Assembly (NCBI GenBank): GCA_021234155.1 | Contig: JAJEKV010000008.1 | Span: forward strand, 6,784,445 to 6,848,444 | From: Isoetes taiwanensis | Lineage: Eukaryota > Streptophyta > Lycopodiopsida > Isoetales > Isoetaceae | Reading direction: 5' to 3' | Length of the DNA: 64,000 bases | Part shown: positions 15,428 through 43,345 of the stretch, in pieces | Numbering within the stretch: the stretch's first letter is position 1 | How the letters are laid out: each line of letters starts with the position of its first letter | Notes under the pieces: model-generated | Databases searched by the model: none | The model's input: the letters and a program-made list of their open reading frames with translations, nothing else | Told to the model about the DNA's origin: nothing | Made by a program: the position numbers and the translations under genes

Positions 15428-15895
15428 TTAGATGTGGCTGCCAAGGTTGTTGTTAAACCATTCATTGTAGTGCTGGTAAAACTCTGCTGTAGAACCCAGA
15501 ATGTAACTGCCTTGCCCTTTATCATTTTGCATCAGTAGCTTTGTCAAACTTTCCTTCCCCATCAGAAGAAGAAGGGTACCATACAAGTCTGTCAACAGTT
15601 TATGGCTGTAGTACATTTCCCTGAACCTGCTCAACTGAGTTTCTGTCATACTGAAGTGAGTATTAAATAAGAACTCAAACAAGATGTGCATCTGCATGAA
15701 CTCTCGAGTATATATTTCTGCCCATACTGCTTCTTTTGTTCTAGAACTTTCAACCTCTTTCAAAAAATCATCTGTCAGCTCACACAATTGCTTCAGTGTT
15801 AACTTTTTCCCAACTTGTTGACTCTGATACATGGCTAATTCATAACTGTCAACATCTGTGTCCAGCTTTGTGGCACCTTCTCCCTTAAGAAACAT
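15428..15895 (-). CDS. LINE ORF3 candidate, 155 codons, overlaps ORF2 stop
   Basis: The frame is open over 208 codons (15428-16054). The first 53 lie over ORF2 in another frame and look hydrophobic by chance, so I take the Met at 15895. That ATG overlaps the ORF2 TAA (15885-15887) within the 11-nt string ATGTTTCTTAA, a layout compatible with termination-reinitiation. The product starts MFLKGEGATKLDTDVDSYEL. It looks mostly helical and rich in Leu, Glu, Lys and Thr, with no transmembrane segment, zinc motif or family I recognise. About 390 bp of 3' UTR follow to the poly-A tail. It could instead be a frameshifted C-terminal extension of ORF2. Coding status is inferred only from length and composition. 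Confidence 0.45.
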   Translation of the reverse strand: MFLKGEGATKLDTDVDSYELAMYQSQQVGKKLTLKQLCELTDDFLKEVESSRTKEAVWAEIYTREFMQMHILFEFLFNTHFSMTETQLSRFREMYYSHKLLTDLYGTLLLLMGKESLTKLLMQNDKGQGSYILGSTAEFYQHYNEWFNNNLGSHI

Positions 15896-19756: not shown

Positions 19757-19789
19757 TTATAGATGAGATAAGAAATAAATAGAGGGAAC

Positions 19790-22289: not shown

Positions 22290-22441
22290 TAAAAAGATCG
22301 GGGAAGAAAACAGAGACACGTGAGAAGGAAGTAAAAGGAGGGAGCGAGAAATTTGAAAGGAAAGAGGGAAAAGAAACAAATAGGGGAGAGGCAAATTGAA
22401 AGGAAATCAACTCAATCACTAAGAATTCAGGAAAGCACTCT

Positions 22442-22735
22442 TCATTGTCTTTGATCTGCCTCGGAATACAATTTGACTGTCAATTTTGAATCTGTCCAAT
22501 CACAATTTACTCTTAGTATAGCAGTTGCTTCAGTATTTTTGTTTCCAATGAATTCTTCCATTTCGATCTCAAATTCTTCACAGCTTGGAACAAATGTGTA
22601 TTCCAGATGAAAATTTTCCTCCGGGAAGAATTGATTTGTTATCAGAGAATGCCAAAGGCGAGTTGCAGATCCACACAGATATCCACAAGTTAGTCTGCCT
22701 TTATCCTGTAAAATTACAAAGATTTTAGTGTCCAT
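22442..22735 (-). CDS. Upstream LINE ORF (ORF0-like), 97 codons
   Basis: Sense-strand ORF in the LINE leader, ending about 150 nt before the ORF1 start. The product MDTKIFVILQDKGRLTCGYL... ends in SEADQRQ, is acidic, and looks like a compact alpha/beta protein. The copy at 36463-36756 keeps the frame without a break. The frame also stays open upstream of the Met back to about 22,880, without another ATG. No family recognised. It is not homologous by eye to ORF1 or ORF2. The sense orientation differs from primate L1 ORF0, which is antisense. Confidence 0.45.
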   Translation of the reverse strand: MDTKIFVILQDKGRLTCGYLCGSATRLWHSLITNQFFPEENFHLEYTFVPSCEEFEIEMEEFIGNKNTEATAILRVNCDWTDSKLTVKLYSEADQRQ

Positions 22736-22939
22736 TTGTAGATAATTTGGAGAGGATTCATATGGCAGTAGGCTCAGATTGCTAGCCCCTACAGGGCTAG
22801 CAGAAATCTCGATTGAATGAAGAGCTAGAAGAGCAGAATTTTCAAAATCCGAGCAAGAAGCAAGGCTTAACAGAAAAATGCACTAGAGGACAAAAATTCC
22901 AAGAAACTTGGCGCTCGAGCATTTTCGTTATCTGTCCCT

Positions 22940-22954
22940 GTTTTTATTCAATAG
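22940..22954. repeat. Target-site duplication of the nested LINE, 5' side
   Basis: GTTTTTATTCAATAG; partner of 14996-15011. Confidence 0.72.
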
Positions 22955-23305
22955 TTTGTGTAATACATATGTGATTATATTTTCGATTCTATTATATTTA
23001 ACACTGCATTCACTCTACACTTTATTTTATCAACATTTTCTTTCCTCCATATAATTTGAAATACTTTTCTTCTTTTGATTATCTCGCATCCTTCCAGACC
23101 CACAATGTTTTTCTTAACCATACTTTACATCCACATGTGTACACATATTAATTCATTAGTTATATGTATTCTCATTTACATACAATTATTACACATACAT
23201 ACATTGTTATATTTACATCGCACAGATACATCTCACAGATACATTCTATGTGGCATCATTAAGTTGATGCTGCCGGAGATGAGTCGAGGAAAGGGGGTTG
23301 ATGGG

Positions 23306-24522
23306 TCACTGTGCGCCTTTGGTATCGCCAGCAGAATTGTCTGCATCAAGGAAAGGGGCAGTTCTGAAAGTAGTGTCCTTGGCGGAAGCATCGAAAACAT
23401 GCCCTAGGAGCTGTTTTTGTGTTTCTTTCGAAATAGAGTGAAGAAGCTGTTGTGTAGCACTCATAATGGTGTCCAGCTTAGCAGGCTCTGGGCGTTGGCT
23501 TAGAGTAGAGGTTGAGAGTCCTAGTTCCGAGATCATAGGGGCCGCCCCCTCTAATTCAAGGGCTCTTGTTGCGGCTTAGCTACGGACTTGGTGACAAATG
23601 CACGTACCATTTTGGGAAGTTACTGACACTTATGAGTATGTGGAACATAGCGAGCTTTGAAAGCTTGAGCAAAGTTGCCAAACCTGCACGTATTATCTGT
23701 TACGTAAGCCATTAGCTGAAGCATATACCCTTCCCACTAATTACGGGCAGGACCCGTGAGGTTATTGATAGCAAGTCTCGTGGTGGCTTTATCAGTCATC
23801 CCATACCCATTGGCAACCTAGTGGATCTCCTTTAGCCAAGACTCAGCATCTACGCCGCAGAACTGGAGGAGCTTGTGGGTCCGACAAATACTAGCGCTTG
23901 CAGAGGCAATCACTTTTTGATCCTTGTCAATGGACTTCTCTTGTTCAGTATCAGACTCGGAAGAGTCGATGGAGTCCAAATTTGAGCTGGGTGCAGTTGT
24001 AGGACGTGGGCGTTTAACGCGTCTATGGTGTGCAGGAGGGCAAAAGTATGCTGGTGGGTATCAAAAAAACGTGGCCCCAGCACTTAGATCAGCACCCTGG
24101 ATGTACTATTCTATCATAGTATTCCACTTGTTATTAGTTGGAGTTGTTACATATTTCTATTGATTACCTAATTACCATGTGCTAGTACCAGTAACACCTT
24201 AAACAAGCTGCCATATGGGGTGCTATATGAGTGCTGTCAGCATGTGTCCGGACGCCTGCTTTTGATACCCACCAGCATACTTTTGCCCAGGAACACAACA
24301 AGCCATAGACGGTGGTGCACATTGCAAAATATACAGCTGCAGTTCTTCCACCTGGTGCTTGATAAGAATGATCTCCTGCTCGCAAGTCAAACGTCGACGT
24401 TCCACTATGGCAGGCCATGGGGCCTGTCGTATTCCATCTATAGCAAAAGGGAGATTACTTATAGACGAGAAATGTGTATGAATCAAATAAAAAATGATTG
24501 AACATACACATGTAGCATCCAT
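23306..24522 (-). pseudogene. Gypsy gag, degenerate
   Basis: Minus-strand reading gives an N-terminal charged, possibly coiled stretch (frame 24223-24522: IVERRRLTCEQEIILIKHQV). After a break comes an Asp/Ser/Thr-rich linker, then the capsid-like core: AESWLKEIH, GYGMTDKATTRLAINNLTGP, NFAQAFKARYVP. This fits the Retrotrans_gag pattern WL--I-----G-TD--K---A---LTGPA--WW, with stop codons at two tryptophan positions. The C-terminal part is the frame 23306-23536. No zinc knuckle is visible. It lies on the same strand as the gypsy LTRs and so probably belongs to that element, though it is 7 kb from the 5' LTR. Confidence 0.6.
24045..24290. repeat. Inverted repeat within gag, about 29-bp arms
   Basis: GGGCAAAAGTATGCTGGTGG and the following GTATCAAAA at about 24045-24073 recur in reverse complement at about 24262-24290. 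Read in opposite directions both arms encode GQKYAGGYQK. The spacer is about 190 bp. Confidence 0.7.
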
Positions 24523-24780
24523 ATGTAAAGGACCTTATTCATAGTTTCGAATGATTTTTTTTTTTATATAATACAAATGAGAGTGCGAAGTAGGACTACA
24601 CATAGAATAGTGCACGAAGGCGAATATAATTATAACATTAGAAAAGTGACATGGAACGCTTGGGGTGGAAGGTTGTCGACTGAGAGCGAGCATTGCGAGT
24701 AAAAAGTAAATAGTATTGATTCAGGCACCTTTGACGGACAAAACATAATGTGAAGATTTAGTGATAATAAGATGTTATAT

Positions 24781-25185
24781 CTAGGCATAGTTATTCGAAG
24801 ATGTGAGTGGGTCCACGATCTTTTCAAGAGTGTTGTCCCGTAAGGACCATAGGAAGTCGTACTTATCACGAGCTTGGAGGATGATGTCCTGATACTCCAT
24901 GGTCGGGCTTACTACCAAGAGGTTGAACAAGTTGTTCATTGCCCGATAGAGTACCCAAAGGTGGTCTTCAACATCGAGGAGTACTTCATCGTTTTTGTCA
25001 TCCCAATAGGGCCATCCCCACTGCCTGGTGCTCCGTAAGTCATGGGCGGCCCTATCTCGAAGAAGCATCACAAGCTCCCATCCTTGAGTGGTATAGTGTG
25101 GCGTGTTCGATGCAGGAATCATCTCTGTGGTCAATGCTAGACCCCAAAGTAGAGGCTGGAGGATCCCTTGCCTTGAGGTACACAC
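24781..25185 (-). CDS. Unrecognised 134-codon ORF in the gypsy 5' region
   Basis: An open frame on the element's coding strand, upstream of gag. The product has aromatic and acidic stretches (TRQWGWPYWDDKNDEVLLDV, YDFLWSLRDNTLEKIV) and looks like a folded protein. No family recognised. A further frame on the same strand at 25454-25699 (81 codons) may be an upstream piece of the same decayed protein. Some gypsy lineages (Ogre/Tat) carry an extra ORF before gag, but I see no motif that proves it here. Confidence 0.3.
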   Translation of the reverse strand: MCTSRQGILQPLLWGLALTTEMIPASNTPHYTTQGWELVMLLRDRAAHDLRSTRQWGWPYWDDKNDEVLLDVEDHLWVLYRAMNNLFNLLVVSPTMEYQDIILQARDKYDFLWSLRDNTLEKIVDPLTSSNNYA

Positions 25186-25699
25186 CTGTTATGGATTATG
25201 ACTTTGAGACGCTTAAGGGGGTAAGGAATAGAATAACCATATGGTGGTTACTAACGAAGGTTCAAGCATAAGGGTTTTCTATTATGAGATTGAGAGAGTT
25301 TAGTGCATCCATCTCATCATGAGGGAGCCAAAGCCGACGACATCTAAAACTGATCAAAAGTTGAAGTTGACATGATAACCTAAGAAAATAGGTTAATTGT
25401 GACAAAGCATGGTTGATATTGGGGACACAAAGAATATTTAGCTGAAGGAGCCTTTAGAAAAGCTCTTCATGTGGGGTAGTGGCCTTCGGAATAATGGCAT
25501 AATATCCCATGGGGGAATCATAGTTTATGTATGGGACTGAAGTCCTATAAAGCAGTAAGGAAATGGTTGAAGTACCTAGGGGCCCTATCAAAATGTAGGC
25601 CGCATATACCATTCCAACATAGAGTTGGCTACTGTCCATTTGGGAAGTCGGTGGCACAGCCACATCATAAAGGTACATAGGCAATGGGTTTTGTTTCAA

Positions 25700-28040
25700 A
25701 GAACTACCGAGGTTACACTTTAGCTAAGTTAGAGCAGAGCTCCAGCATTGTGGGATGAGGATATATGTTTACTATGTACGTATTATGTACACATATGATA
25801 AACATCTCGGAGAGGTAATGTATGCAGTGACACGAGGAGAGAAAGACGAGTGTATCCCATAGGTACCAATGAAGGGTCTGGAGTATGTCTGGAACGTGCA
25901 AACAACAGTGAATCTATTGGATGGTAAGGTATGATGTTGTAGTTGGCACTTGAAATAAATATCAACGAGCAATAGAATAAAGCTTAGGATGATGGGGTTG
26001 AGCAGTATAATAGTGCAATTCCAAGATGCGTAGCGAATAGCAGTTACCTACTAGAAGATCGAATATTGTCTTGCATAGACATCGAAGACTAGATCTCCCA
26101 CATGATCCATACCCGGATCAGGCAGAGGCGACCCCCATGGGTTAGATGGAAGTGTAAGTTAGAACACATAGTGCTCGAACATCGATACAAGCCATCGATA
26201 CAAGCCAGGGTAGATACTTTAGAAAGGTTTAGAAAAAGCAAGGGAGGCACCTTGATGACTCTAGGTAACTTAGGATTCTTATGAAAGCTCTCTCGCTAAT
26301 TTAGGGCATGATTATGGCTTAGATGAGGATGCCAAGTCACTGGTAATGCCACAACAGTGGCATAATATCATCACAGAGAAACGTAATGACTAACATTTCT
26401 AGGGCGCGCGACAACGTTGAATCCTAACCCCCAATGATATGTGGGTTAATAACATTTGGGGTGGATGCAAGCTTGGACATAAATTGCTATATCATATGGC
26501 ATATAATAGCGGCTTAGAAGCCACAAGACAGTTAAAGAATACCTAAAGGAGTAAATGAATTGGTGACCCTATGGAATAAAAGCTACAACCAAAGGGTGAA
26601 TTCTATATGCTGTATCACGTGAAAGGGCCGGGATAACGAATTGACCATGGACGTAGAAAGCTTATTAAGGAAGAAAAGGAATGAAGGACCCTTGTTCGTG
26701 ATATTTAGCGGCCCAGATGGGAAGGTTATTACCAAACATAAAGGGTGGTCTTTCCCAACCTGCAAAAAATAGATTTTTGGCTTCAAAGGCAGCAAGAGCA
26801 GAAAAGCTCTTTAAAGGTTTGGTGCATGGCTTAGGAAAGAAGGCTTTCATTTTCTAGGACAACATGGTGAATTGAATTCACCAAGAACCTTTTTAATAGA
26901 AGAGGCCTCTCTTGAGAGGTCTTTGAGTAGTACCGTCCTTTGGGATATCCACATAATCCCTTAGAATATGTAAGTTTATTTGTGGAACTTAATGACGTTT
27001 AGGCACTAAAGTAATGGTTCGAAACACTTTGCCCCAACCATATCTAGATACCCTAGAAGGAGATGACAATTCAACAATGGTTGGGTGCCATTAGACCGTT
27101 ATGGTAGAACAACTCCGAAAGAGGATAGGCCATCGTCAATTTGACAGGCGTATTGACATCGCTGTGGGGGTTTCAACACAAGCAATCGCTATGTGTTATA
27201 GAGTATGTAGCGCGATCTGGGGAAGTGATCCATAAAAGGAACATGACCATTGAGAAGAAGTATTGAAGGGTGATAGGATTAAAGAAATCCAAACCCATGG
27301 TCTAGAGGGGTGCTGCATGGCAGTCTATAGTCGGTTGGGCCAAGTGAGATCCTCTCTCTGGGAAATGAGGCGATTCAAGGCTTAGACACTAAAGAGAAAC
27401 AACGTTAATTATAGTTATATCTATAAAATGTTACTTAACCCTTAATATATAACGTTGAATAAGGTCTAATATAAAGCATATGAATATAGTATAGATTAAA
27501 TCATGGCAAGGCCCGAAGAAATTTTGTTATCAAGGCATCTACCAAAGGAAAAAGAATATTTAAAGCTATAGGTCTAGGAATGTCAATAACTAGACATTAT
27601 TATCCAAAAGAATATCCAAGTTGATAGTGGATTAGAATCTAACTTAGAAGTCTCTATCTTACTCAGAGGAGTTCCCTTCCACCGCTCAGCGTGAAAGTTC
27701 ATCGATATAGTTGGGGGAACCATTCCGCAGTGATAGTAAGAACCCTTAGGTTATTCCTACCCCACCATGGTTGCACAAGTCCGGCGGAGTTGTTGCCACC
27801 ACATCGTTGGTTTAGGGAGAGATGATTACTAGACCGAAGTCTTAGTAGAGAAACAGAGATACTATTAGGTAAGTATAACAAGGGACTATTATATTTATTG
27901 AAAGGAGGCTTATCGTGTTGGTAAAGGGTTTGGATGTGTGGTGGGAGGGCAAGGGTTTAAGTTCCTATAATACAGTCTTATATAGAAAGTTGCTATGCAG
28001 AGAAAACAGAGCATATAAGAAATATGTGGAACCACATTCA
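25700..28040. other. Gypsy-internal region, decayed, no family recognised
   Basis: Short minus-strand frames (for example 26583-26795 and 26665-26850, the latter reading AFEAKNLFFAGWERPPFMFG) suggest decayed coding sequence, but no domain can be named. There is no element boundary that I can support. Confidence 0.3.
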
Positions 28041-28194
28041 AGGAAGCTTGGCATGGTGGTAAGCGCTTAAAGCTTTAGTTGGAAGGTCGCAAGTTCAAAT
28101 CTATGTTGAGGGGGCAAAAAGACATTTATATGGTGAAAATATGATGGAATTTTTATACGGCAAAAATATGTTTTTTTTTTTTTTTTTTTTTTTA
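28041..28194 (+). mobile_element. Possible tRNA-derived SINE with T-run tail
   Basis: A pol III A-box-like TGGTGGTAAGCGC is followed about 30 bases later by a B-box-like GGTCGCAAGTTCAAATC, and the unit ends in about 24 T (28171-28194). Size and order fit a short plant SINE. A clear target-site duplication was not found, so this remains tentative. Confidence 0.4.
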
Positions 28195-28598
28195 TTGCAA
28201 GTAATATTTTAGTTGGAAGCTTCTAGCTCTTTACTCATAGTATAGTACTTTGGGTGGATTCACATGATAAAATAATATCAACAGGTCTGGGTAATATGTT
28301 TGCCCAATATGTATTTGTAAAGGGATTAAACATCCATATCGGCATGATTTGTCTATGCACGATTTAACAGATAAGGTTGATCATAATTTGTCAGTACAGG
28401 ATATACAATGGTCTACGTAGCATGGTAGAGGCCATATGGCCATTAAAGATATTACAATATTTACTTACATTTATTAAACAAAACTAAAGAAAATTAAACC
28501 CTAAAACGTTGCATTTACTGAAGGTGGGCTTGAAAGACAGTAAATGCCTCTTGACCTAGCAGAAGATCTATGACAGTGATCCAATAGCCAATTTTCTC

Positions 28599-28956
28599 TT
28601 GGGTACATGCGCCCACATAATGGGCTACTTTTCGGATGGTAATTACACATCGGATTCTGATAATGAAGAATTTAACATTGCTGATTTGAAGCGGGAGCTT
28701 GAAGCTTATACAGTTAAGACTGGTAAGTCTAATCACAGAATGTATTCTAGATGCACTAGAGGCGGCTGTGGCCAAAAAAGAGGCATTTTTCAAAGAGATG
28801 ATAGAAGCTATCAAAGAGGTCCCAAGCATTTCGGCAAAAGGCGATGAGTATCAAGATATACAAAAAATCCAGGAAACTCAGGAGATGGATGGGGATCCAG
28901 ACTTCGATCAGGTTTCATTTAAGATCTATAAGTTTAATTGGTTGTTATATAGATAA
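28599..28956 (+). other. Two overlapping short frames, unknown
   Basis: Frame 28599-28847 contains GYFSDGNYTSDSDNEEFNIADLKRELEAY. Frame 28699-28956 contains a helical, charged stretch EAAVAKKEAFFKEMIEAIKE. The two could be one ancestral charged protein broken by a frameshift, since the first loses good composition where the second gains it. No family recognised. Confidence 0.25.
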
Positions 28957-29608
28957 ATTTATCTGCTAGTTCCAGATCTCGCATGATGAAACTTATAAGG
29001 CAAGTTTGCTCATAAGGATTCAGGCGGCGGTTAGATGCATTAGAAATACATCTGTAAGGCACCAAATAAAGGGTTAAATTCTGATTTTTAAAGTCATAGA
29101 TGTTACAGTAATAGTCCACTGACTGGAAGTCACCCTATACACTAGTAACAATGGCTTTTAGTTGTTCCAAAACAAGATGCAATTCTATCTATCAATAAAT
29201 AAGGACGATGTATCAGTATTTTACCATTGGATGGTCTAGATTTGGCCTTCTTGTTGTGATTATTCAACAGGGAAAAACTGTAAAGCTATGAGAAGATCTA
29301 CATAAACATGAATAATTTAGGGCAGGTGTGAAGCTCTGGAATAATTTAGATCAGTGATAACAATATCTAAATGCATAACTTCATGGTTTTCAGTGGAAAT
29401 ACAAAAGTTATTCTCTGATTTCAGTTCATTTTTGTTGTCAAGACTTACTAATAGGGCAAAAGGAACAATGGGTAATCAGCGAAGAGCTGAAAACCCCAAC
29501 GTACCTTTTGGCCCTTGCCCTGATACCATTCTCATGCTAACATGGTATTGTTTGGCTTCAGGTACGGGGTTTTCTTCTCATTGTCTCTCTTTCTTTACAA
29601 GTATGGTT
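28957..29608. other. No supported gene
   Basis: AT-rich sequence up to the left edge of the 5-kb duplicated segment. The frame at 29354-29635 has no recognisable domain. Confidence 0.4.
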
Positions 29609-31794
29609 TGGCTGCAAGGATGGATCAAGTTCTGATAAAAATAGCAGTTGGCGTTCTTATACAACACACTGATATGTCTACTGAGCACATGAACAGGGTT
29701 CTTTTATATCTGAGTTTATATTCCTGCAAAGTTTGCTTATAATACATTCTGCTGAATGATATAGATATTGATATATTTTCGGCTTAAAAGTCTATGATAT
29801 ACGGATCTTAAAAAGGAAAAAGATCTATGGATATATTTTGTAAGTAAGTTCCTCTCATGAAATGAAACTTACTATTTTGAGATAAGATAAATAATGGAAA
29901 AGACCTCTGTCACAAATATATCAGGTATTCGGATCTGATCTGATTGGTGTATCATAATTTTGAACCTGTATGACCATACTAATGGTTATGCTATGATTAA
30001 CTAAGGCATATAAGCCAGTAAATACATATAATAGGTTGGACAGATCGAAATTATTGACTGGTCCCTAAAGGTTCTTTGTAAACTTTAATTTTTTATAATA
30101 GGATGGCCAGGGTGGGGTAATAAGATCCCAATTTGGCTGAACATAATAGGCCCTTGGCAAAACCACATTATGAAATCTAACGAAATGCATGTGATAGAGA
30201 TCATCTAGCTGGATCTAAATTCTAAAGTCACAAATACCGTTTAATGATCTTCTGGCATAAAAGGATATAGCTGAAACAGAATATTAAATATCAATCAGGC
30301 TACAAGTTTAGCACTAGATAAACATAGTAAGGTTCTAGAAAAGCACTTGGTCTAAGACTCGAAGTTTGTCAGGCTTCAAATACAGTTTTGGTTATGACAT
30401 GTTGTCTCTCTCAAGTCTTAAATGTGAATATAACTGTCATCTAATCCCTAAGGCAGATACCACTTTTGTATAAATTATTACACCAGTATGGGAATATCTA
30501 TGTGATCTAGTGATGTATATATTTGAGTTGATTATGAGGGGTGATACTACACTAGAAAGCTCGCTCATGCTAGTAGTAAAGTGATAATACGAGTGCTATT
30601 TTTTTTTATTTTTTTTTTAATGCGATAAATATTGCCATTGCAAATAATAGAAAAATAGTGCAAGTCATACTAAGTCTCGAAAGTTCCCTTCAAATAGCCA
30701 TATATATGTCTCTCAAGTTGTACCTCCCTCAAGTGGAGCATCGTAAATTGTAACAACATAGCATTGTGCCAATCTTGGTGATACATTGGTGCTAGGCACA
30801 CAACCATTACGTCAAGGTAAAGATTTGAAGTTAAAAGATCATTTGTTGTCTTTATACACGAAATAGGAGGTTTTTTAGTTGAATATGAAGAAAAATGGCA
30901 TGCTTGCCACTTGTCAATATTCTATAAATTGCTTGCATGCATAGTTCTCTTTTGCTTTCTCCTTGAACACTTTAAAGTAGTATTTCAATGAATTGTTGGC
31001 TAGTAAACATTTCAAAGGTAAACGGCCGTGGGTGGATAAAGGTACGTTTACTCCAATTACAATCTTCACATGCAAGTTTCACTTAGGATTTGCCAAAAAG
31101 AGCAACCCTAACATGTAGGGTTTTTTCTACAAAAAGGAGCCGCTTTGTATCCGCTTGTTCTTGCTAAATCTTCTGTCTCTTCATGCCTAGTTTGGCTGCC
31201 ATTCTGCTGGCAGATCTGATCCTATTTCTCTCACGAGAAGTCTAATGTGCCTTTTGAAAGATTGGTGACCTTGAATGGGCGAAAATGCCAAGAGCTATGT
31301 GACGGCACTTAGTGTCATGCGCACATTCCCAGCCTCTGTTAGAATAGATGGAGGTATGCTGCTGTACAGTCTTAGCATCAGTTGCATGTCATGGCTTAGA
31401 ATGGAAAATGGCTACTGTTCTAGCTACATTTTTGTGGATGCACAATAAAGGAACAATCTCATACACATTCAACTGAATACGGGTGAAATACGGGTTTCTT
31501 TTTCAATTCTAAGACTCCATTTTGCTCGACAGGCACTCTGTGTGCCCGAACCCATTTGATGTCGTTTTGATGCGGGATGCTGGTGTCCCTAGGGTAATTG
31601 GATTGTCTTCGACATGTTGGTGCAAAAATTAGCTCAATCCGAGTTACCTAGAGAAAGTTATGGCCTGTGAAAATAAGGGACCTCTTTTTTCTCCAGAAAC
31701 TTAACATATTTGATTCTAAGGACTTACGCCTTAATTCCTCCTCCCATAACTAGGTCAACATACATACTAGTTATGGAATTGGGATGGTTCCACA

Positions 31795-31810
31795 CATGCT
31801 CAGATACCAC
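31795..31810 (-). promoter_or_regulatory. Primer-binding site, initiator tRNA-Met type
   Basis: Minus strand G-TGGTATCTGAGCAT directly follows the CGTCACA end of the 5' LTR. The usual plant PBS is TGGTATCAGAGC; one base differs. The copy in the second segment is at 38970-38985. Confidence 0.72.
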
Positions 31811-32168
31811 TGTGACGTTCCCCGAATCCATACGATGCTCCCATCGTATAAATACGAGAAATTTCCCTCCCATGGCGACTCCATCACCACGGAAAGGTGG
31901 TCCGTCTAACTCGGAACACTCGTGATGGCCAAGTGTCCGAGTGAAGGACACAGAAGTGTCATTCGTCCCACACCTTCTATGGGAATCCTATATAGCAGAA
32001 GCGTACATGCATGTTAGCACCTGGCAACAATACTAATAAATAATATACCACCATGAAGGGTGGCCCATCATCATCAAGCAACGAGGTAATTAATGGTGCA
32101 TTAATTATTTATAGTGACTTTTTCACGTATTTATATCCAAAAGGCATATAAATACGCAGAATGTCACA
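31811..32168 (-). repeat. 5' LTR of the gypsy element (internally deleted, 358 bp)
   Basis: On the + strand it runs TGTGACGTTCC to AATGTCACA. It matches the LTR at 12398-13403 except for a deletion of about 650 bases after CCCATCATCATCAAG. It is flanked on the right by ATGTC (32169-32173), the TSD partner of 12393-12397. Confidence 0.78.
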
Positions 32169-32173
32169 ATGTC

Positions 32174-33060
32174 TCAAAAAAAAAAAGATTGATTCAAAAG
32201 AGAATCAAAAGCGGATATAAGTCAAGTCATTCTACTACAAAAGAGAATCGATAGTTGATATCACTCAGAGTCAAGAAGCAATATTGATGAGTTGATTAAT
32301 AACTGTGTTAAGATCCAGGAAAAGTTCAGCTCTATTCAAAATACTATCAACAAGCATAAAAGGGGCAAATCACTAATATTTCTCTAGAATTACTACTTCC
32401 CACTTCCCCACCATCCAACTCTCTTGATACCCCTAATTGTCAGACTTCTCATTCCTCTCTCCCTTCCACTGACCATTCTCTCATTCCTCCTATTATTGTC
32501 CCTACCTATCATGTTAGTTTATGGCAAAGAAATGCTCTAGTCCCTTACTCGCTACAAAGAAGATTGATGTAATGACACTACAAATTAGTAGAGAATATGA
32601 TTGAAGAGACTTTTCTTCTCTATTGTCAAGAAGAAAAAAATAAAAAATTGTCTAGTAAACACAAAAACATTGCTATTGAGGAGCTGGCCAATGATTGCTC
32701 TAGTCTGGATCAACAAGATATGGCTCTAGATGACCTTGAAGTATCTTCAAACATAGTTAATGCCCTTTCTAAACTCCATTTCAGTGAAATCTTTTCTGAT
32801 TTTCAAATGTCTCCATATGGCAATGGTGATTGTTCTCAAAATGAAAAAAGAGAGAGAACTGGAACTCCAAAATTGTATCTCTGCCAGTTTACAATATCAG
32901 CCTTTGAAGGATCTTGTTCCTATTGGCGGCACTTTAGTTCCCTCCATTATTCGGGGATGCCCGAAATGGAAGAAGGAAGCTAGAAAAAAGGGTACCTTAA
33001 ATAGACATACTATGCCCACAGAAGAAATTACACCCTGCAAGTGTGTGAAATCATAATGGC
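32174..33060 (+). pseudogene. LINE ORF1 remnant, right half of the split LINE
   Basis: Resumes immediately after the TSD. It contains a Pro/Ser/Thr-rich spacer (about 32,390-32,520) and a frame at 32597-32983 with acidic DQQDMALDDLEVSSN. A basic end follows in another frame (PKWKKEARKKGTL), as in the ORF1 C-terminus. Stops and frameshifts are present. The second copy (39772-40158 frame) differs by small indels. Confidence 0.6.
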
Positions 33061-33125
33061 CCAACCAAGTTTACAAGAAGCAATGGTGACAGCACCCCTG
33101 AATCTCTATCTAAAAAATCTCTATC

Positions 33126-33806
33126 ATGAGAGTTATCTCCTGGAATTTAAGAGGGATTAAAGGTCCTACAAAGAGAAAAAGTTTTGTTGCTAATATTTGA
33201 GAGTACAAAGTTGATTTCATCCTTATCGAAGAGCACCATCTTCCGAGCTCTAAGGCCAACAATCCAACTAATTAGATCAAAGCTGGTGCTCACTCTATAG
33301 TTATTCCATCTTGTGGTACTAAAGGGGGGCTTGCCATAATTTGGTCAAATGTTAATGTTATCTCAACTTATAATAGTCTTAACTCTAGATGGCAGTATGT
33401 TATATGGGAATCTGATGGCCAAAACATTGGCATTATTAACATTTATACTCAGACTGAACCTCATGAGAGAGATTTACTATGGCAAAATATTCAGCAAACC
33501 ATCTTAAACCTTCCTCACATTGATTGGATTATGATTGGAGATTTCAATAACACTCCCCAATGGGATATGAAGTTGTGAAAAATACCCGAGAGATGCAGGT
33601 GGAATAGTCTACTTGCGCAAAATCTTTTCTACCACATTCCTTGCTCCGATGTTAAATTCTCTTGGTTAAGTAAAAGAAACCTACACTAATTCATCTACCA
33701 GTAGCCTTTTAAATTGTCTAGTCACAGAAGACAAAGGTGCTATTCTTTCAGATCACCAACCAGTCATTATTGACTTCAAGGACCTTAGCCAGCAGAGAAC
33801 TTAGTC
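33126..33806 (+). pseudogene. LINE ORF2 endonuclease domain, decayed
   Basis: Begins MRVISWNLRGIKGPTKRK 60-70 nt after the ORF1 end, like the ORF2 start of the nested LINE. APE endonuclease motifs follow: IEEHHLP (catalytic Glu present), GTKGGLAIIWSN, IMIGDFNNTPQWDMKL and LSDHQPVII. Several in-frame stops show it is dead. The similarity ends near 33,806, before the reverse transcriptase. Duplicate at 40301-40981. Confidence 0.8.
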
Positions 33807-34187
33807 CAAGAATATAATGGGCTCTAATGGTTGTGCCTCTATAGTACAACGTCTTATGGTAACCGTGTACATGTCGATGTACTCAATATCTACTAGTGAG
33901 TGGCAGTATAATATACGTATTTATATCGTATATTATCCTGGAACGTCACACCCCCTAACCCACAACCGAATTTGGGTTAGAAGCTTTGCTATCGAAGAGT
34001 CTATTGTCAGACATATGACGAAACTATTTTCTGCATCGACCCTCTGACTTCTTAATTTCCTTCCAGAGTGCCAGCGAAATTCAAAGGTCAAGCATCCAAT
34101 ATAAATAATTTCAAATTATTGAAATTGTTGTTATGTTGCCAATTGAAAAAAAAAGGGGCCAACAACTTTCAAATTAAACAACTCTTC
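33807..34187. other. Non-coding stretch between LINE fragments
   Basis: Contains TGGAACGTCACA (about 33,950) resembling the end of the gypsy LTR family, followed by CCCCCTAACCC. No gene was seen. A short inverted repeat ATTTCAAATTATTGAAAT lies near 34,110. Confidence 0.35.
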
Positions 34188-34502
34188 TTAAAATTCTAAT
34201 GGTCTCATTATAGTGGAACATAAAACAAAAATCCAAATACTCCAGATGGCAACTTGCTTTAAGGTATTTATAAAATCATTATTTCCACTTAAAAATAGGC
34301 AAGTAGAATCATGAGGATCTATTCTGTAACCAGCTTGATACGTAATGTCTCTCAACCAACTCCATAAAATGGAAGTTCTAAGACAACTAAAAATATAAGA
34401 GGTGGTTTTAGGATACCCTTTGCACATGTCACAGATAATATCAAAGTTGGGTGCAGAATTCCCCAGCCACTTTTTGAGAAAACATTTGGAGGGAATAGCC
34501 AA
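34188..34502 (-). pseudogene. LINE ORF2 C-terminal zinc-finger (zf-RVT-like) fragment
   Basis: A 104-codon minus-strand frame with CFLKKWLGNSAPNFDIICDM, CKGYPKTTSYIFSCLRTSIL and WSWLRD. These have the Cys-x2-Cys ... His/Tyr ... Cys spacing and W--L ending of the finger after LINE reverse transcriptases. It is an isolated 3' piece of another LINE copy, opposite in strand to the endonuclease fragment beside it. Duplicate at 41363-41677. Confidence 0.62.
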
Positions 34503-34599
34503 ATGGAGAGTTCACTAGACCATGAGTTGGCCCAAGTGGCACTTGCTAATTTACCTTATTTAATAATTAGTTAATAATTAGCTAATCTTGCATAATCTT

Positions 34600-36309
34600 G
34601 CAGAGAACCATGTTTTCTTGATCAGGTTCATTTGAAATCACCAATGGAGATATTTTATCCCCTTTGTCCAAGTCGTGTTGGGGAAGAGTTGATGAAGAAT
34701 TCTTACATTTATCCACTGCTAATGTTTTCCTTTGTAGAGATTTAGAAATCTCACCTTGTTTCTCTAATTGTTTCTCTTGAGTTTTTGTAGAACCCAGGAG
34801 TTGAGATTTATTTGCATGGCTTTTCCTAATTAATAGATCTCCCTTACTGCTTTTTTGAAAATCCAATTTTGAAGACAGTTTGGAATTATTCAAGATTTTT
34901 GCATCTTGAATAATTCTATCAAGAGTTGAATGCAAATCTTCTGTTGATGTTGCTGACTGATCCATGGGGGCTTTCCCTTTTCCAATGTATTCACCATATT
35001 TCTGTATCACCTTTATTTCTGGAGGCTTTTTAAATATTCCTGTCAAAGCACTTTCATTTGAAATTGTTGCAGAATTATGATGGTCATGAGTTTGCTTTAA
35101 CTTCTCCTTTTCCAATCTATTCTTATGGATTCTCCTTTGAGAACCATTGACCCTTTTCCAGCTGAAATCATTATGTTCATTTGCTTTTGATGCATTACCT
35201 AATAATGTCTTCACAGCTGTTTCATTTCTGTCTCGAGGCATAGCACTTCTGAATGCTATTGTTTCATGTGAGGATACAACTTTCTCAGCTTGACTCATAC
35301 CCTTTAATGGAATTGTATTTATTGTCATGTTTACCTGATTCTTAGAGCATGAACTGCAATTGTCATACCAAAAATGCCTGTTCTTACATGTTTGACATTG
35401 AGGAGGCGGACGACCACCTTAGTGATAGAGTTGACTTACGTCCAAAAGCATCAAGGAAAGGAATTTGAGTTGGAATATCTTTGGAAAGGTCAAGTTGGAT
35501 GAAGGCACGGGGTGGTCTCTCAGGGTAATATTCAGTGGAGATGTAGGTGCCAATGGAGTTAAATAAAGATCTGAAACAATCTTCATTCCAGATGTAAAAG
35601 TAGTAGAAGCAATGCATAAAGAGTCAAAGGATTTGGTGTCAAGTCTGGGATTCCATTTAAGAAAGGAGATTTGATAATTTTCAAATACCAGAGGACCATG
35701 GTTCAGAAAGAAATTTGCTGATCTTTTATTTTCACACTCAATCATGATGAATGGATAGTTTAGCCAATAAATAGCTTTGATAAGAACACCTTTTTGGAGC
35801 TTTTGGCAGAAATTCCATAGCTTCCCTAGGTTAATGCCAGACTTGTTGACCTTAACTAGAATAGCAGTATCTTTAAGAATTGACATCTTTTCATGCACAG
35901 AGGGAAGATTTAAAGAAATACCATGATAGAGTGGTTGCTTGCTTCCATCAGCAGATCGGGTCTCCATTAAGGCTTGATCCAAAGCTTTGTCTGAGAGGAC
36001 ACTTCTAACTGGTTTTGGCACCCTATAAGGCAATGGGATTTGAGTGTTTGGGTGCAAAATTGGAAGACGACCATAAAGATCCGGGTCCTTAGAAAGATTA
36101 TCCCAGATTGGCACCTTATGAGTTCTAGGGTGCATGATCTGATCAAAAGATAGAAGGTTAGCAAAATCACCAAAGAGCATACATTTTTTTGGATTTTCTT
36201 GGTAAAGACTTAACTGGTGAAGCAAGGGAGAGCGCTCAGAGTCTTCAAGCTGAGCAAAATCGTGAAGAAAGGCTAGGAATTTAGGGCTAAAATTGGCTAG
36301 ATTATCCAT
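34600..36309 (-). pseudogene. LINE ORF1 partial copy
   Basis: Opens at MDNLANFSPKFLAF and reads without a break to about 35,595; there a one-base loss shifts the frame, which resumes in the frames 35384-35617 and then 34582-35328. The 3' third of ORF1 is missing, because the fragment stops at the rearrangement junction. The early frameshift seen in the source copy near 22,215 is absent here. Confidence 0.75.
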
Positions 36310-36462
36310 TAAAAAGATCAGGGGAAGAAAACAGAGACACGTGAGAAGGAAGTAAAAGGAGGGAGCGAGAAATTTGAAAGGAAAGAGGGGAAAAGAAACA
36401 GCAGGGGAGAGGCAAATTGAAAGGAAATCAACTCAATCACTAAGAATTCAGGAAAGCACTCT

Positions 36463-36756
36463 TCATTGTCTTTGATCTGCCTCGGAATACAATTTGACTG
36501 TCAATTTTGAATCTGTCCAATCACAATTTACTCTTAGTATAGCAGTTGCTTCAGTATTTTTGTTTCCAATGAATTCTTCCATTTCGATCTCAAATTCTTC
36601 ACAGCTTGGAACAAATGTGTATTCCAGATGAAAATTTTCCTCCGGGAAGAATTGATTTGTTATCAGAGAATGCCAAAGGCGAGTTGCAGATCCACACAGA
36701 TATCCACAAGTTAGTCTGCCTTTATCCTGTAAAATTACAAAGATTTTAGTGTCCAT
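36463..36756 (-). CDS. Copy of the LINE upstream ORF (ORF0-like)
   Basis: Same 97-codon product as at 22442-22735 with the frame kept. In this copy the frame extends 12 codons further upstream across the junction to a new Met. Confidence 0.4.
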   Translation of the reverse strand: MDTKIFVILQDKGRLTCGYLCGSATRLWHSLITNQFFPEENFHLEYTFVPSCEEFEIEMEEFIGNKNTEATAILRVNCDWTDSKLTVKLYSEADQRQ

Positions 36757-38985
36757 TTGTAGATAATTTGGAGAGGAATCATATGGCTGCAAGGATGGAT
36801 CAAGTTCTGATAAAAATAGCAGTTGGCGTTCTTATACAACACACTGATATGTCTACTGAGCACATGAACAGGGTTCTTTTATATCTGAGTTTATATTCCT
36901 GCAAAGTTTGCTTATAATACATTCTGCTGAATGATATAGATATTGATATATTTTCGGCTTAAAAGTCTATGATATACGGATCTTAAAAAGGAAAAAGATC
37001 TATGGATATATTTTGTAAGTAAGTTCCTCTCATGAAATGAAACTTACTATTTTGAGATAAGATAAATAATGGAAAAGACCTCTGTCACAAATATATCAGG
37101 TATTCGGATCTGATCTGATTGGTGTATCATAATTTTGAACCTGTATGACCATACTAATGGTTATGCTATGATTAACTAAGGCATATAAGCCAGTAAATAC
37201 ATATAATAGGTTGGACAGATCGAAATTATTGACTGGTCCCTAAAGGTTCTTTGTAAACTTTAATTTTTTATAATAGGATGGCCAGGGTGGGGTAATAAGA
37301 TCCCAATTTGGCTGAACATAATAGGCCCTTGGCAAAACCACATTATGAAATCTAACGAAATGCATGTGATAGAGATCATCTAGCTGGATCTAAATTCTAA
37401 AGTCACAAATACCGTTTAATGATCTTCTGGCATAAAAGGATATAGCTGAAACAGAATATTAAATATCAATCAGGCTACAAGTTTAGCACTAGATAAACAT
37501 AGTAAGGTTCTAGAAAAGCACTTGGTCTAAGACTCGAAGTTTGTCAGGCTTCAAATACAGTTTTGGTTATGACATGTTGTCTCTCTCAAGTCTTAAATGT
37601 GAATATAACTGTCATCTAATCCCTAAGGCAGATACCACTTTTGTATAAATTATTACACCAGTATGGGAATATCTATGTGATCTAGTGATGTATATATTTG
37701 AGTTGATTATGAGGGGTGATACTACACTAGAAAGCTCGCTCATGCTAGTAGTAAAGTGATAATACGAGTGCTATTTTTTTTTATTTTTTTTTTAATGCGA
37801 TAAATATTGCCATTGCAAATAATAGAAAAATAGTGCAAGTCATACTAAGTCTCGAAAGTTCCCTTCAAATAGCCATATATATGTCTCTCAAGTTGTACCT
37901 CCCTCAAGTGGAGCATCGTAAATTGTAACAACATAGCATTGTGCCAATCTTGGTGATACATTGGTGCTAGGCACACAACCATTACGTCAAGGTAAAGATT
38001 TGAAGTTAAAAGATCATTTGTTGTCTTTATACACGAAATAGGAGGTTTTTTAGTTGAATATGAAGAAAAATGGCATGCTTGCCACTTGTCAATATTCTAT
38101 AAATTGCTTGCATGCATAGTTCTCTTTTGCTTTCTCCTTGAACACTTTAAAGTAGTATTTCAATGAATTGTTGGCTAGTAAACATTTCAAAGGTAAACGG
38201 CCGTGGGTGGATAAAGGTACGTTTACTCCAGTTACAATCTTCACATGCAAGTTTCACTTAGGATTTGCCAAAAAGAGCAACCCTAACATGTAGGGTTTTT
38301 TCTACAAAAAGGAGCCGCTTTGTATCCGCTTGTTCTTGCTAAATCTTCTGTCTCTTCATGCCTAGTTTGGCTGCCATTCTGCTGGCAGATCTGATCCTAT
38401 TTCTCTCACGAGAAGTCTAATGTGCCTTTTGAAAGATTGGTGACCTTGAATGGGCGAAAATGCCAAGAGCTATGTGACGGCACTTAGTGTCATGCGCACA
38501 TTCCCAGCCTCTGTTAGAATAGATGGAGGTATGCTGCTGTACAGTCTTAGCATCAGTTGCATGTCATGGCTTAGAATGGAAAATGGCTACTGTTCTAGCT
38601 ACATTTTTGTGGATGCACAATAAAGGAACAATCTCATACACATTCAACTGAATACGGGTGAAATACGGGTTTCTTTTTCAATTCTAAGACTCCATTTTGC
38701 TCGACAGGCACTCTGTGTGCCCGAACCCATTTGATGTCGTTTTGATGCGGGATGCTGGTGTCCCTAGGGTAATTGGATTGTCTTCGACATGTTGGTGCAA
38801 AAATTAGCTCAATCCGAGTTACCTAGAGAAAGTTATGGCCTGTGAAAATAAGGGACCTCTTTTTTCTCCAGAAACTTAACATATTTGATTCTAAGGACTT
38901 ACGCCTTAATTCCTCCTCCCATAACTAGGTCAACATACATACTAGTTATGGAATTGGGATGGTTCCACACATGCTCAGATACCAC

Positions 38986-39343
38986 TGTGACGTTCCCCGA
39001 ATCCATACGATGCTCCCATCGTATAAATACGAGAAATTTCCCTCCCATGGCGACTCCATCACCACGGAAAGGTGGTCCGTCTAACTCGGAACACTCGTGA
39101 TGGCCAAGTGTCCGAGTGAAGGACACAGAAGTGTCATTCGTCCCACACCTTCTATGGGAATCCTATATAGCAGAAGCGTACATGCATGTTAGCACCTGGC
39201 AACAATACTAATAAATAATATACCACCATGAAGGGTGGCCCATCATCATCAAGCAACGAGGTAATTAATGGTGCATTAATTATTTATAGTGACTTTTTCA
39301 CGTATTTATATCCAAAAGGCATATAAATACGCAGAATGTCACA
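38986..39343 (-). repeat. Duplicate of the gypsy 5' LTR
   Basis: Identical in structure to 31811-32168, including the internal deletion. It arose with the segment duplication and not by insertion. Confidence 0.78.
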
Positions 39344-40300
39344 ATGTCTCAAAAAGAAAAGATTCAGATTCAAAAGAGAATCAAAAGCAGATATAAGTCA
39401 AGTCATTCTACTACAAAAAGAGAATCTGATAGTTGATATCACTCAGAGTCAAGAAGCAATATTGATGAGTTGATTAATAACTGTGTTAAGATCCAGGAAA
39501 AGTTCAGCTCTATTCAAAATACTATCAACAAGCATAAAAGGGGCAAATCACTAATATTTCTCTAGAATTACTACTTCCCACTTCCCCACCATCCAACTCT
39601 CTTGATACCCCTAATTGTCAGACTTCTCATTCCTCTCTCCCTTCCACTGACCATTCTCTCATTCCTCCTATTATTGTCCCTACCTATCATGTTAGTTTAT
39701 GGCAGCAAATGCTCTAGTCCCTTCTGCTACAAAGAAGATTGATGTAATGACACTACAAATTAGTAGAGAATATGATTGAAGAGACTTTTCTTCTCTATTG
39801 TCAAGAAGAAAAAAATAAAAAATTGTCTAGTAAACACAAAAACATTGCTATTGAGGAGCTGGCCAATGATTGCTCTAGTCTGGATCAACAAGATATGGCT
39901 CTAGATGACCTTGAAGTATCTTCAAACATAGTTAATGCCCTTTCTAAACTCCATTTCAGTGAAATCTTTTCTGATTTTCAAATGTCTCCATATGGCAATG
40001 GTGATTGTTCTCAAAATGAAAAAAGAGAGAGAACTGGAACTCCAAAATTGTATCTCTGCCAGTTTACAATATCAGCCTTTGAAGGATCTTGTTCCTACTG
40101 GCAGCTTAGTTCCCCTCCATTATTCAGGGGATGCCCAGAAATGGAAGAAGGAAGCTAGAAAAAAGGGTACCTTAAATAGACATACTATGCCCACAGAAGA
40201 AATTACACCCTGCAAGTGTGTGAAATCATAATGGCCCAACCAAGTTTACAAGAAGCAATGGTGACAGCACCCCTGAATCTCTATCTAAAAAATCTCTATC

Positions 40301-40981
40301 ATGAGAGTTATCTCCTGGAATTTAAGAGGGATTAAAGGTCCTACAAAGAGAAAAAGTTTTGTTGCTAATATTTGAGAGTACAAAGTTGATTTCATCCTTA
40401 TCGAAGAGCACCATCTTCCGAGCTCTAAGGCCAACAATCCAACTAATTAGATCAAAGCTGGTGCTCACTCTATAGTTATTCCATCTTGTGGTACTAAAGG
40501 GGGGCTTGCCATAATTTGGTCAAATGTTAATGTTATCTCAACTTATAATAGTCTTAACTCTAGATGGCAGTATGTTATATGGGAATCTGATGGCCAAAAC
40601 ATTGGCATTATTAACATTTATACTCAGACTGAACCTCATGAGAGAGATTTACTATGGCAAAATATTCAGCAAACCATCTTAAACCTTCCTCACATTGATT
40701 GGATTATGATTGGAGATTTCAATAACACTCCCCAATGGGATATGAAGTTGTGAAAAATACCCGAGAGATGCAGGTGGAATAGTCTACTTGCGCAAAATCT
40801 TTTCTACCACATTCCTTGCTCCGATGTTAAATTCTCTTGGTTAAGTAAAAGAAACCTACACTAATTCATCTACCAGTAGCCTTTTAAATTGTCTAGTCAC
40901 AGAAGACAAAGGTGCTATTCTTTCAGATCACCAACCAGTCATTATTGACTTCAAGGACCTTAGCCAGCAGAGAACTTAGTC
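40301..40981 (+). pseudogene. Duplicate of the LINE endonuclease fragment
   Basis: Same motifs and same stop codons as 33126-33806 (WNLRG, IEEHHLP, GDFNN, SDHQP), so the decay predates the duplication. Confidence 0.78.
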
Positions 40982-41362
40982 CAAGAATATAATGGGCTCT
41001 AATGGTTGTGCCTCTATAGTACAACGTCTTATGGTAACCGTGTACATGTCGATGTACTCAATATCTACTAGTGAGTGGCAGTATAATATACGTATTTATA
41101 TCGTATATTATCCTGGAACGTCACACCCCCTAACCCACAACCGAATTTGGGTTAGAAGCTTTGCTATCGAAGAGTCTATTGTCAGACATATGACGAAACT
41201 ATTTTCTGCATCGACCCTCTGACTTCTTAATTTCCTTCCAGAGTGCCAGCGAAATTCAAAGGCTGCTACTCCAATATAAATAATTTCAAATTATTGAAAT
41301 TGTTGTTATGTTGCCAATTGAAAAAAAAAGGGGCCAACAACTTTCAAATTAAACAACTCTTC

Positions 41363-41677
41363 TTAAAATTCTAATGGTCTCATTATAGTGGAACATAAAA
41401 CAAAAATCCAAATACTCCAGATGGCAACTTGCTTTAAGGTATTTATAAAATCATTATTTCCACTTAAAAATAGGCAAGTAGAATCATGAGGATCTATTCT
41501 GTAACCAGCTTGATACGTAATGTCTCTCAACCAACTCCATAAAATGGAAGTTCTAAGACAACTAAAAATATAAGAGGTGGTTTTAGGATACCCTTTGCAC
41601 ATGTCACAGATAATATCAAAGTTGGGTGCAGAATTCCCCAGCCACTTTTTGAGAAAACATTTGGAGGGAATAGCCAA
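41363..41677 (-). pseudogene. Duplicate of the LINE zinc-finger fragment
   Basis: 104-codon frame identical to 34188-34502. Confidence 0.6.
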
Positions 41678-41771
41678 ATGGAGAGTTCACTAGACCATGA
41701 GTTGGCCCAAGTGGCACTTGCTAATTTACCTTATTTAATAATTAGTTAATAATTAGCTAATCTTGCATAAT

Positions 41772-41915
41772 TGGCTTATTTAATTAATGTGAATTTAGCA
41801 TAGCTAATTTGGCCGCATTAGCTAATCACATAAAGAGTCAATATACTATTATGTACTTATGGTGACGTGTCATGTATTTTGTATGTGTAGTGTATAAAAT
41901 ATTTGGAATGTCACA
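41772..41915. repeat. End of an LTR related to the gypsy family
   Basis: GGTGACGTGTCATGTATTTT and the terminal GGAATGTCACA resemble the end of the LTR at 13,350-13,403. The other boundary could not be placed. Confidence 0.4.
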
Positions 41916-42213
41916 TAAGCCATAGGGATGTTATTTAATATGATAATTTGGTTGTTCACCCATTGCATGGACTGTTATTCTTTCATTATATAATGCTCTG
42001 AAAAATCCACTATCGAAACAAATGCATCTGTTGGGAGATCCTTTAGAGTTCCTTACATTGTCTAGCCGACACTAGTACCTAAGATTATTCAATGGAAATA
42101 TTTTTAGATGATTTTTCACATTATATAATAAGTATCTGAACTAATGAGTTAATCTCCTATCAAAAGTTGACCCATTGTCTTTTTCATAACCAATATACTC
42201 CCATTTCAATTTC

Positions 42214-43345
42214 ATGTTACTCTTATTGACGTTTATAGTCATAGAGCAGAGTTGTATGATTGGGCCCGATTGGGCCCATCAGTCACACCTGTTCAAGGTC
42301 TTAGTGGAGCCTGTCCTTTTATATGGGGTGGAAGTATGGGGCCCAATAGTATCACTTGCTACTTGGAATGACTTGGAGCAGGTCCAGAAAGCCTTCTTAG
42401 TACGAGCACTAGGGGTGAAGTCCACAGTCCCATATCAAATTCTGCTGCAGGAGACAGGATTCTTGCCTCTTCAGAGGGCGGCCCTTGATCGCCACATTGT
42501 CTATTTTCAGAAGGTGGTCAATATGGACGATGATCGTCTCCCTAAACTAGCTTATATCATGGCAATGGAGCCGCTTGCGCCTCAAGGCCTCTTTGGAGGG
42601 AAAAGAGAGCTCAATGGTTGGCTAGATGGAATGTGCAGAGCACACGGTGCATGCATGTGCAAACAGAGGCGATCGCCATAGCTTGAGGCAATATCTTGAT
42701 GCTTGCTTCCTCGGCAAAGCTTTGGGATGCCAATGCCCTTGAACAGTCAAGACAAAGACACTACCGGCGCCACATAAATCCCACATTGGAACGAGGCCCG
42801 CAATGCTACCGCGATATCCACTTGCCCATGAAAAGGCGCTGACTCATTGCCTCCATTCGCGCGGGGGCACATCATCTTCGGTTGAGGCGGGCGGATGGAT
42901 TAGTGAGCCACCGGGGCAGATGTGCTCAATCAATGCCGCCAAATGGGAGTCATTGAGGATGAATCTCATACCCTTCAAAGTTGCCCAAAGATATGATCAA
43001 ATTCGGACCGCGATATCTTTGAGTTGGTCAGGCCTGGCCAGCCGTTACATGTGACATTGAGCACAGCATCCGTACGGGTGCTAGGATCATATCTTCAGGA
43101 GGTTGTGGACATGCGAGATCAGCTATGTCCTCGGGCACACACTTGACATGTATATATATACATTGATGTATACTTGTGCAGTTTGACAAAGATTCTTATT
43201 AATGCGCCCGCGGTTTTCCCTCGAAAACCCTTGGTGGGGGGTTTTAACCCTGACAAGAATAAGTTTGTCGCTCCTTTTGGGTCCCATAGGCCGATTGGCC
43301 TCAGTGGACGATAAAAAATCATTCTCATTCTCATTCTCATTCTTC
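42214..43345 (+). mobile_element. LINE family R, second decayed 3' copy
   Basis: Frame 42214-42681 reads LVEPVLLYGVEVWGPIVSLA and EQVQKAFLVRALGVKSTVPY, then RAALDRHIVYFQKV. This is the region after the reverse transcriptase also seen at 4.2-4.5 kb. Basic, Pro-rich decayed sequence follows (42803-43054). The 3' end shares GGTCCCATAGGCCGATTGGC and GGACGATAAAA with the first copy and closes with a CATTCT microsatellite (43320-43345) as its tail. The 5' two-thirds are missing. Confidence 0.8.
43320..43345. repeat. CATTCT microsatellite at the LINE R 3' end
   Basis: Four tandem CATTCT units followed by TC. The other copy ends in CCTTCC repeats, so the family appears to end in variable pyrimidine-rich simple repeats. 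Confidence 0.7.

Follow-up and report, generated by a model that had tools for sequence, protein, structure and literature searches.

How does a plant genome come to hold a 5.0-kb segment twice, with a 2.2-kb piece of an element some 14 kb away lying between the two copies? The question is raised by a stretch of 64,000 nucleotides of the Isoetes taiwanensis assembly (contig JAJEKV010000008.1, positions 6,784,445 to 6,848,444 of the forward strand), which we call the window and in whose numbering positions are given. We show here that the arrangement is real in the assembly, that the piece between the copies was templated by a nearby long interspersed nuclear element (LINE), and that only the two joins on either side of this piece are new. 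The locus is a new example of an already known kind of rearrangement, for which template switching is the best reading, supported in part by the data described below. The evidence base is one assembled allele, read from assembly sequence alone.

Layout of the locus and its LINE donor

Self-BLAST of the window gives the order A-B-C-A'-C', with every copy in the same orientation and a repeat period of 7.2 kb. The segments are the following.

20579-22766, + strand: A, a stretch on the ORF1 (open reading frame 1) side of a LINE, template of the inserted piece, 99.22% identical to 34600-36787
22767-29608, no strand assigned: B, 6,842 bp skipped in the second unit, single copy in the window
29609-34596, + strand: C, first copy of the 5.0-kb segment, made of degenerate repeats including a LINE endonuclease fragment
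34600-36787, + strand: A', templated LINE piece, oriented as in its source and without either LINE end
36784-41771, + strand: C', second copy of the 5.0-kb segment, running on into the ancestral right flank
15015-22946 (about 7.9 kb, ends approximate), - strand: the donor, an L1-type LINE, placed by its ORF2 domains and a flanking repeat

The two copies of C align at 99.44% over 4,995 columns, with 14 mismatches and 11 gap openings, and A and A' at 99.22% over 2,192 columns, with 9 mismatches and 7 gap openings. These are the same bases that the initial annotation of this DNA had paired, 29609-34596 with 36784-41771 and 34600-36787 with 20579-22766. Another self-comparison of the window gives both pairs too, piecewise. 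The longest self-match after them, among the matches listed, spans 329 columns at 89%, and because both pairs dwarf it a chance origin is out of the question. No second copy or remnant of B was found in the self-comparison, a search confined to the window. The assembly searched for relatives comprises 1,658,258,908 bases in 1,110 contigs (the window is part of contig C1089); such a search scores no more than the best 40 candidates, so that all repeat copy counts are lower bounds. The full C segment was represented, among the matches listed, only by C and C'.

The donor of A' is the LINE 14 kb away. Its 5' end lies at about 22946 and its 3' end, a poly-T on the + strand, at about 15015, and the element is flanked by an exact 11-bp direct repeat, TTCAATAGTTT, at 15004-15014 and 22947-22957. 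ORF2 (16058-19756) contains the Pfam domains RVT_1 (2.5e-32), Exo_endo_phos (5e-10) and zf-RVT (1.5e-6). A' is 99% identical to this element, while the next best among the genomic copies listed reaches 96%. When A and A' are aligned with the 10 other LINE copies that score best, about 16 bases at 21572 prove to be deleted in both A and A' and in none of those 10; the gap was aligned in pieces, with A' off by one shifted base, and its size was read by eye. The identity and the common deletion together identify the local LINE, and not another member of the family, as the source. A' falls short of the 3' end of the LINE by about 5.6 kb and of the 5' end by about 180 bp, and its flanks are C and C'. 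The earlier remark that the copied piece lacks poly-A and a target-site duplication agrees with this, as both LINE ends lie outside A'.

The element shows further features. Directly downstream of ORF2 and in the same frame, a 209-aa open frame (15428-16057, - strand) gave no Pfam match at E 0.01 and may represent additional coding sequence in LINEs of this family. The ORF1 frames of source and copy (21387-22381 and 35408-36401) are interrupted at differing places, in addition to the shared deletion, and some of the interruptions, those at CAG/CTG, may be sequencing errors.

Old borders and new joins

The two joins that hold the second unit together can be followed base by base.

34583-34602, + strand: junction 1, TAATCTTGCA twice, a 10-bp local back-copy that links C to A', with microhomologies TAAT (4 bp) and GCA (3 bp)
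36784-36787, + strand: junction 2, TGGC microhomology of LINE 22763-22766 with C 29609-29612

At junction 1 the sequence reads TAATCTTGCA-TAATCTTGCA-GAGAACC, where C ends in GCATAAT. The repeated sequence had been recognized in the initial annotation and does stand at 34583-34592 and 34593-34602. The three bases CTT, which had been taken as extra, are present at 34597-34599; they are part of the 10-bp templated back-copy and not an untemplated addition. The 4-base TGGC described at junction 2 lies at 36784-36787 and is common to 22763-22766 and 29609-29612. The new joins thus comprise three switches with microhomologies of 4, 3 and 4 bp, and every base is templated. With equal base frequencies, at least 4 matching bases at one random junction have a probability of about 0.016. 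No homology beyond 3-4 bp was seen at either new join in the window self-comparison or in the reading of the junctions. Since the supposedly extra bases of junction 1 are copied from 10 bp away, a polymerase that switches templates is indicated.

Relatives elsewhere tell the old borders from the new joins. Among the LINE matches listed (window included), 25 of 49 start at query 1-7 and end beyond 22766 (query 2374 or later), two of them within 20 bases of it; as these matches span both points, relatives of the LINE run on without a break through 20579 and 22766. Five matches elsewhere cross 29609 well inside their alignments, four over query 16-586 and one over 83-1156, and a sixth starts 19 bp ahead of 29609. 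At the right-hand end, 41771 lies inside a dispersed repeat in which C is cut off; of the 40 matches listed for 41400-42300, 31 continue across that position. Because relatives span all four of these positions, the parental order was A-B-C-flank; the joins of C to A' (34596/34600) and of A' to C' (36787/36784) are new, and the borders at the four positions date from the parental state. A search of the 1.66-Gb assembly that tolerated up to 2 mismatches found each new join a single time. The dispersed repeat at the C border (41699-41916) is AT-rich, about 220 bp long and contains an imperfect inverted repeat; it has 31 further matches at 74-87% identity among the matches listed.

One event or successive events

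We regard it as rather probable that the locus arose in one polymerase-driven germ-line repair or restart event with three template switches, of the type of microhomology-mediated break-induced replication and fork stalling and template switching (MMBIR/FoSTeS) or of the polymerase-theta type. In such an event a 3' end would have copied as far as 34596, slipped 10 bp back, re-annealed at TAAT and copied CTTGCA again. A second switch, via GCA, would have led to the LINE about 14 kb behind, of which 20579-22766 (2.2 kb) would have been copied; a third switch, ahead via TGGC to 29609, would have been followed by renewed copying of C and on into the normal right flank. Read in the opposite direction, the same path would serve equally well. 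That all switches stem from one event is plausible: three switches at microhomology, including a local templated slip, typify a switching polymerase, and a true divergence near zero, which we argue for below, would leave little time for a second event.

With regard to the enzymes, both MMBIR/FoSTeS-type replication restart and polymerase-theta joining of aborted synthesis-dependent repair would suit the locus. The complex product that characterizes MMBIR/FoSTeS, in which duplication, skip and templated insertion are combined, is seen in the order A-B-C-A'-C' with its 10-bp back-copy, and every new join carries a microhomology of a few base pairs (TAAT, GCA, TGGC). Extra point mutations near the joins are also typical of MMBIR/FoSTeS. 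Junction 1 displays the combination of microhomology and short flank-copied insertion expected of polymerase theta, encoded by POLQ, which in plants is TEBICHI. The initial annotation had described the path as fitting MMBIR; template switching is retained as the best reading, while that pathway is not established, as end joining of a failed repair intermediate by polymerase theta would suit the junctions equally.

Several points weigh against a single event. Two successive simple events yield the identical sequence, and one assembled allele cannot date the join of A' to C' apart from that of C to A'. Three microhomologies at one locus are suggestive and are no proof of a pathway. In addition, no stall trigger was identified, since the four parental borders show no consistent energy outlier: in 120-nt windows compared with 400 random places of the window (energy set taken as DNA) their z scores were -0.11, -1.61, 1.52 and -0.55. 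Only the border at 41771 bears an imperfect inverted repeat (arms 41752-41776 and 41802-41826, 76% complementary), and the 251 nt around it fold somewhat better than shuffled sequence (z -2.09, with 6 of 200 shuffles as good). Hairpin-driven stalling was dropped as a cause, because the parental borders are not consistent folding outliers.

The most serious rival, which we nevertheless consider unlikely, has two steps: a 14,018-bp tandem duplication of A-B-C (20579-34596), then loss of B (6,842 bp) from the second unit through the TGGC repeat. Neither step is out of the ordinary, and together they give exactly the observed order and junctions. The earlier proposal of a jump back through the LINE thus stands in its derived joins, its microhomology and its donor 14 kb away, while its single event is not established. 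Precedent for the first step exists in C. elegans without HELQ, where polymerase theta makes tandem duplications that measure about 100 bp to 10 kb, with a median of about 1 kb, and show microhomology and now and then a templated insertion (PMC8654963), but the 14.0 kb needed here exceeds that size range. In addition, no remnant of a second B was found in the window, and if the true divergence is near zero the two-step path would call for two independent microhomology events within the same 14 kb in a short time.

An artefact of assembly or library, in which a chimeric read or a wrong consensus path made the second unit, appears improbable. Base errors do seem to be present in near-identical repeats of this assembly (see below), but mis-joins at repeats normally need long identity, whereas the joins here share 3-4 bp. 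An artefact would further have to produce two separate new joins at a distance of 2.2 kb, and the 10-bp templated slip is a scar of the kind left by repair. The copies also differ from each other: at 10 of 10 motif-linked clusters CAG/CTG is intact in C' and not in C, which points to separate calling of the two.

Transposition hardly deserves credence in either of its forms: TGGC stands on both sides of B, as a 4-bp target-site duplication would, but an origin of B as a transposon inserted in the first unit was rejected because relatives elsewhere cross both of its borders, the one with A lying inside a LINE that is continuous in other family members and the one with C showing that B was there first, and A' as a separate LINE insertion was rejected because it has no LINE 3' end, no poly-A and no target-site duplication. 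Unequal crossing-over between pre-existing repeats, for which tandem products are typical, was likewise rejected as next to impossible, as no homology above 3-4 bp was seen at the new joins where long homology at the exchange points is required.

Differences between the copies and the age of the duplication

A matter absent from the initial annotation is that the identity of 99.2-99.4% is mostly limited by differences at CAG/CTG. The differences fall into 14 clusters in the C pair and 9 in the A pair, and 16 of these 23 touch the motif. In the C pair this is the case for 10 of 14 (1.5 expected; 0 of 5,000 random placements reach the count) and in the A pair for 6 of 9 (1.3 expected; 3 of 5,000). 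The composition-matched control motif GAC/GTC shows no excess (1 against 1.2 expected in the C pair, 1 against 0.8 in the A pair). Indels or multi-base changes account for 13 of the 16 CAG/CTG clusters (8 of the 11 clusters of this kind in the C pair, 5 of the 7 in the A pair). Deamination of methylated cytosine makes no changes of this kind; the remaining three, single-base in nature, could be true mutations. The intact motif lies on the C' side throughout the C pair, as stated above, and is split 3 and 3 in the A pair. A further LINE copy, L006, has garbled sequence at two of these CAG sites. Of the 7 clusters off the motif, five change a single base within or next to a homopolymer run, a sixth is a shifted base immediately adjacent to CAG, and the last is a clean substitution.

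36778, + strand: substitution private to A', 6 bp ahead of junction 2, where A replaces the T that the source and all 10 other aligned LINE copies have

The same excess is found in one other near-identical repeat family (L017, L018, L019), where 19 of 29 clusters touch the motif in one pair (4.2 expected) and 15 of 26 in another (4.3 expected), and again in three further pairings of its same four copies; these five control pairings are neither independent nor unrelated to the locus, as the family is about 80% alike to 29315-29885 at the border of B and C. We infer that the CAG/CTG differences are uncorrected long-read base-calling errors at methylated CHG sites, where short-read polishing fails in near-identical copies. 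Methylation-linked nanopore errors have been documented in bacteria (PMC11610573), and a plant review describes modified bases as making base calling harder (PMC7501810). The methylated-CHG cause is put forward as our own, since in the parts of the literature at hand we found no statement that methylated CHG gives CAG/CTG errors in plant assemblies.

A number of observations argue against base errors as the explanation. Triplets containing CG stand above CAG by fold excess in 7 of 7 pairings, with smaller counts; part of this rise comes about because CAG minus its middle base reads CG. Other triplets are up as well in some pairs. In the C pair, 65 of 5,000 placements reach the level of GCA/TGC and 57 that of CAA/TTG, and in the A pair 56 of 5,000 reach that of ACG/CGT. 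For L017a/b the figures are 25 (CAA/TTG) and 39 (TCA/TGA) of 2,000, and for L018/L019 they are 3 (GCA/TGC) and 2 (ACG/CGT) of 2,000. The control GAC/GTC is itself mildly up in L018/L019 (6 against 2.8 expected; 110 of 2,000 placements as high). The 10 LINE copies that are diverged have 60 private clusters of complex or indel type, of which 13 touch CAG/CTG, a sum over copies for which clusters of more than 13 columns were dropped beforehand and no expectation was computed, in columns of which the motif covers 9.3%. The weak or absent excess in these copies would be explained if short reads map uniquely there.

The T to A change at 36778 is the one substitution outside CAG/CTG and homopolymer contexts. 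Mutation beside microhomology joins has been reported in yeast (PMC5413072), but a single base is no proof. If only this change and at most three motif-linked single-base changes are real, the raw divergence overstates the age several-fold. Probably, therefore, the true divergence of both pairs is near zero, and the event is younger than the identity suggests and hence recent. Dating by raw divergence was dropped owing to the CAG/CTG pattern. No suitable relative was found to polarize the differences in 32176-34095; among the 40 of 775 candidates that were scored, the best outside match to 39250-40300 is 109 bases long.

Taken further, and with considerable doubt, these data might be read as a chain of three germ-line switches within a single generation, with templates about identical to their products, an allele that is maybe polymorphic, and T to A as perhaps the sole true mutation and the mark of a polymerase of low fidelity. 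As HELQ is reportedly absent from plants, long templated pieces of this kind between duplicated segments could then typify plant polymerase-theta repair, and not MMBIR.

Content of the segment and relation to known rearrangements

The duplicated segment contains degenerate repeats. A LINE endonuclease fragment at 33276-33578 is 48% identical to the local ORF2 over 100 aa, and a repeat at about 30599-31477 has many genomic matches at 83-95%. None of three frames of C or C' tested gave a Pfam match at E 0.01, and no intact gene is evident in C among the frames tested. The frame at 34188-34511 (- strand), LINE-like by eye, showed no significant match to the local ORF2 (E 0.37). Elsewhere in the window, 59366-61111 encodes a protein with DUF1645/DUF688, families not known outside plants; like the CAG/CTG pattern, it points to a plant source. 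Another tandem array lies at C1028:14043712-14060397 (L021, L017, L022) and consists of two units of about 6.3 kb, 98% identical, with a period of about 6.8 kb, and a third, partial unit; an imperfect palindrome of about 550 bp (80% self-complementary) precedes it.

Comparable rearrangements have been described from several organisms. Vaughn and Bennetzen in 2014 reportedly traced natural tandem duplications in rice, mostly short, to patch-mediated break repair, and our locus resembles theirs as a plant tandem duplication attributed to break repair. The MMBIR/FoSTeS model (Hastings et al. 2009, PMC2621351) is based on complex discontinuous duplications mixed with deletions and joined at 2-5 bp of microhomology, where a switch behind the fork gives a duplication and a switch ahead a deletion. 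The discontinuous duplication, the skipped piece, the short joins and the backward and forward switches are all found here. The model was built on disease loci in humans, where the switches reach over tens to hundreds of kb, whereas we describe switches of about 14 kb and about 7 kb among plant repeats, in one allele and with no parent. Cycles of templated insertions and local n-jumps in cancer genomes (PMC7025897) likewise string a copied segment between two re-replicated host copies; those cycles are somatic and their segments typically come from different chromosomes, in contrast to the local piece in a reference genome seen here. The polymerase-theta tandem duplications of PMC8654963 share with our locus the junction microhomology and the short templated insertion, and the 7.2-kb period falls within their range of 100 bp to 10 kb. 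They were obtained in animals, in helq-1 mutants; the 14.0-kb reach is above their range, and a kilobase piece between the copies is not described in the part of that report at hand. According to the same source, plants do not encode HELQ, and the outcomes of polymerase theta-mediated end joining are far more complex in them (PMC8654963).

The locus thus offers a clean, fully polarized complex local duplication in a plant, with its donor, a direction-neutral path and its joins resolved to the base. In the near-identical repeats examined here, differences are concentrated at CAG/CTG, a motif of CHG methylation in plants, and are often indels. If base-calling error is the true cause, the ages of repeats and the frameshifts of paralogues taken from such assemblies would be overestimated.

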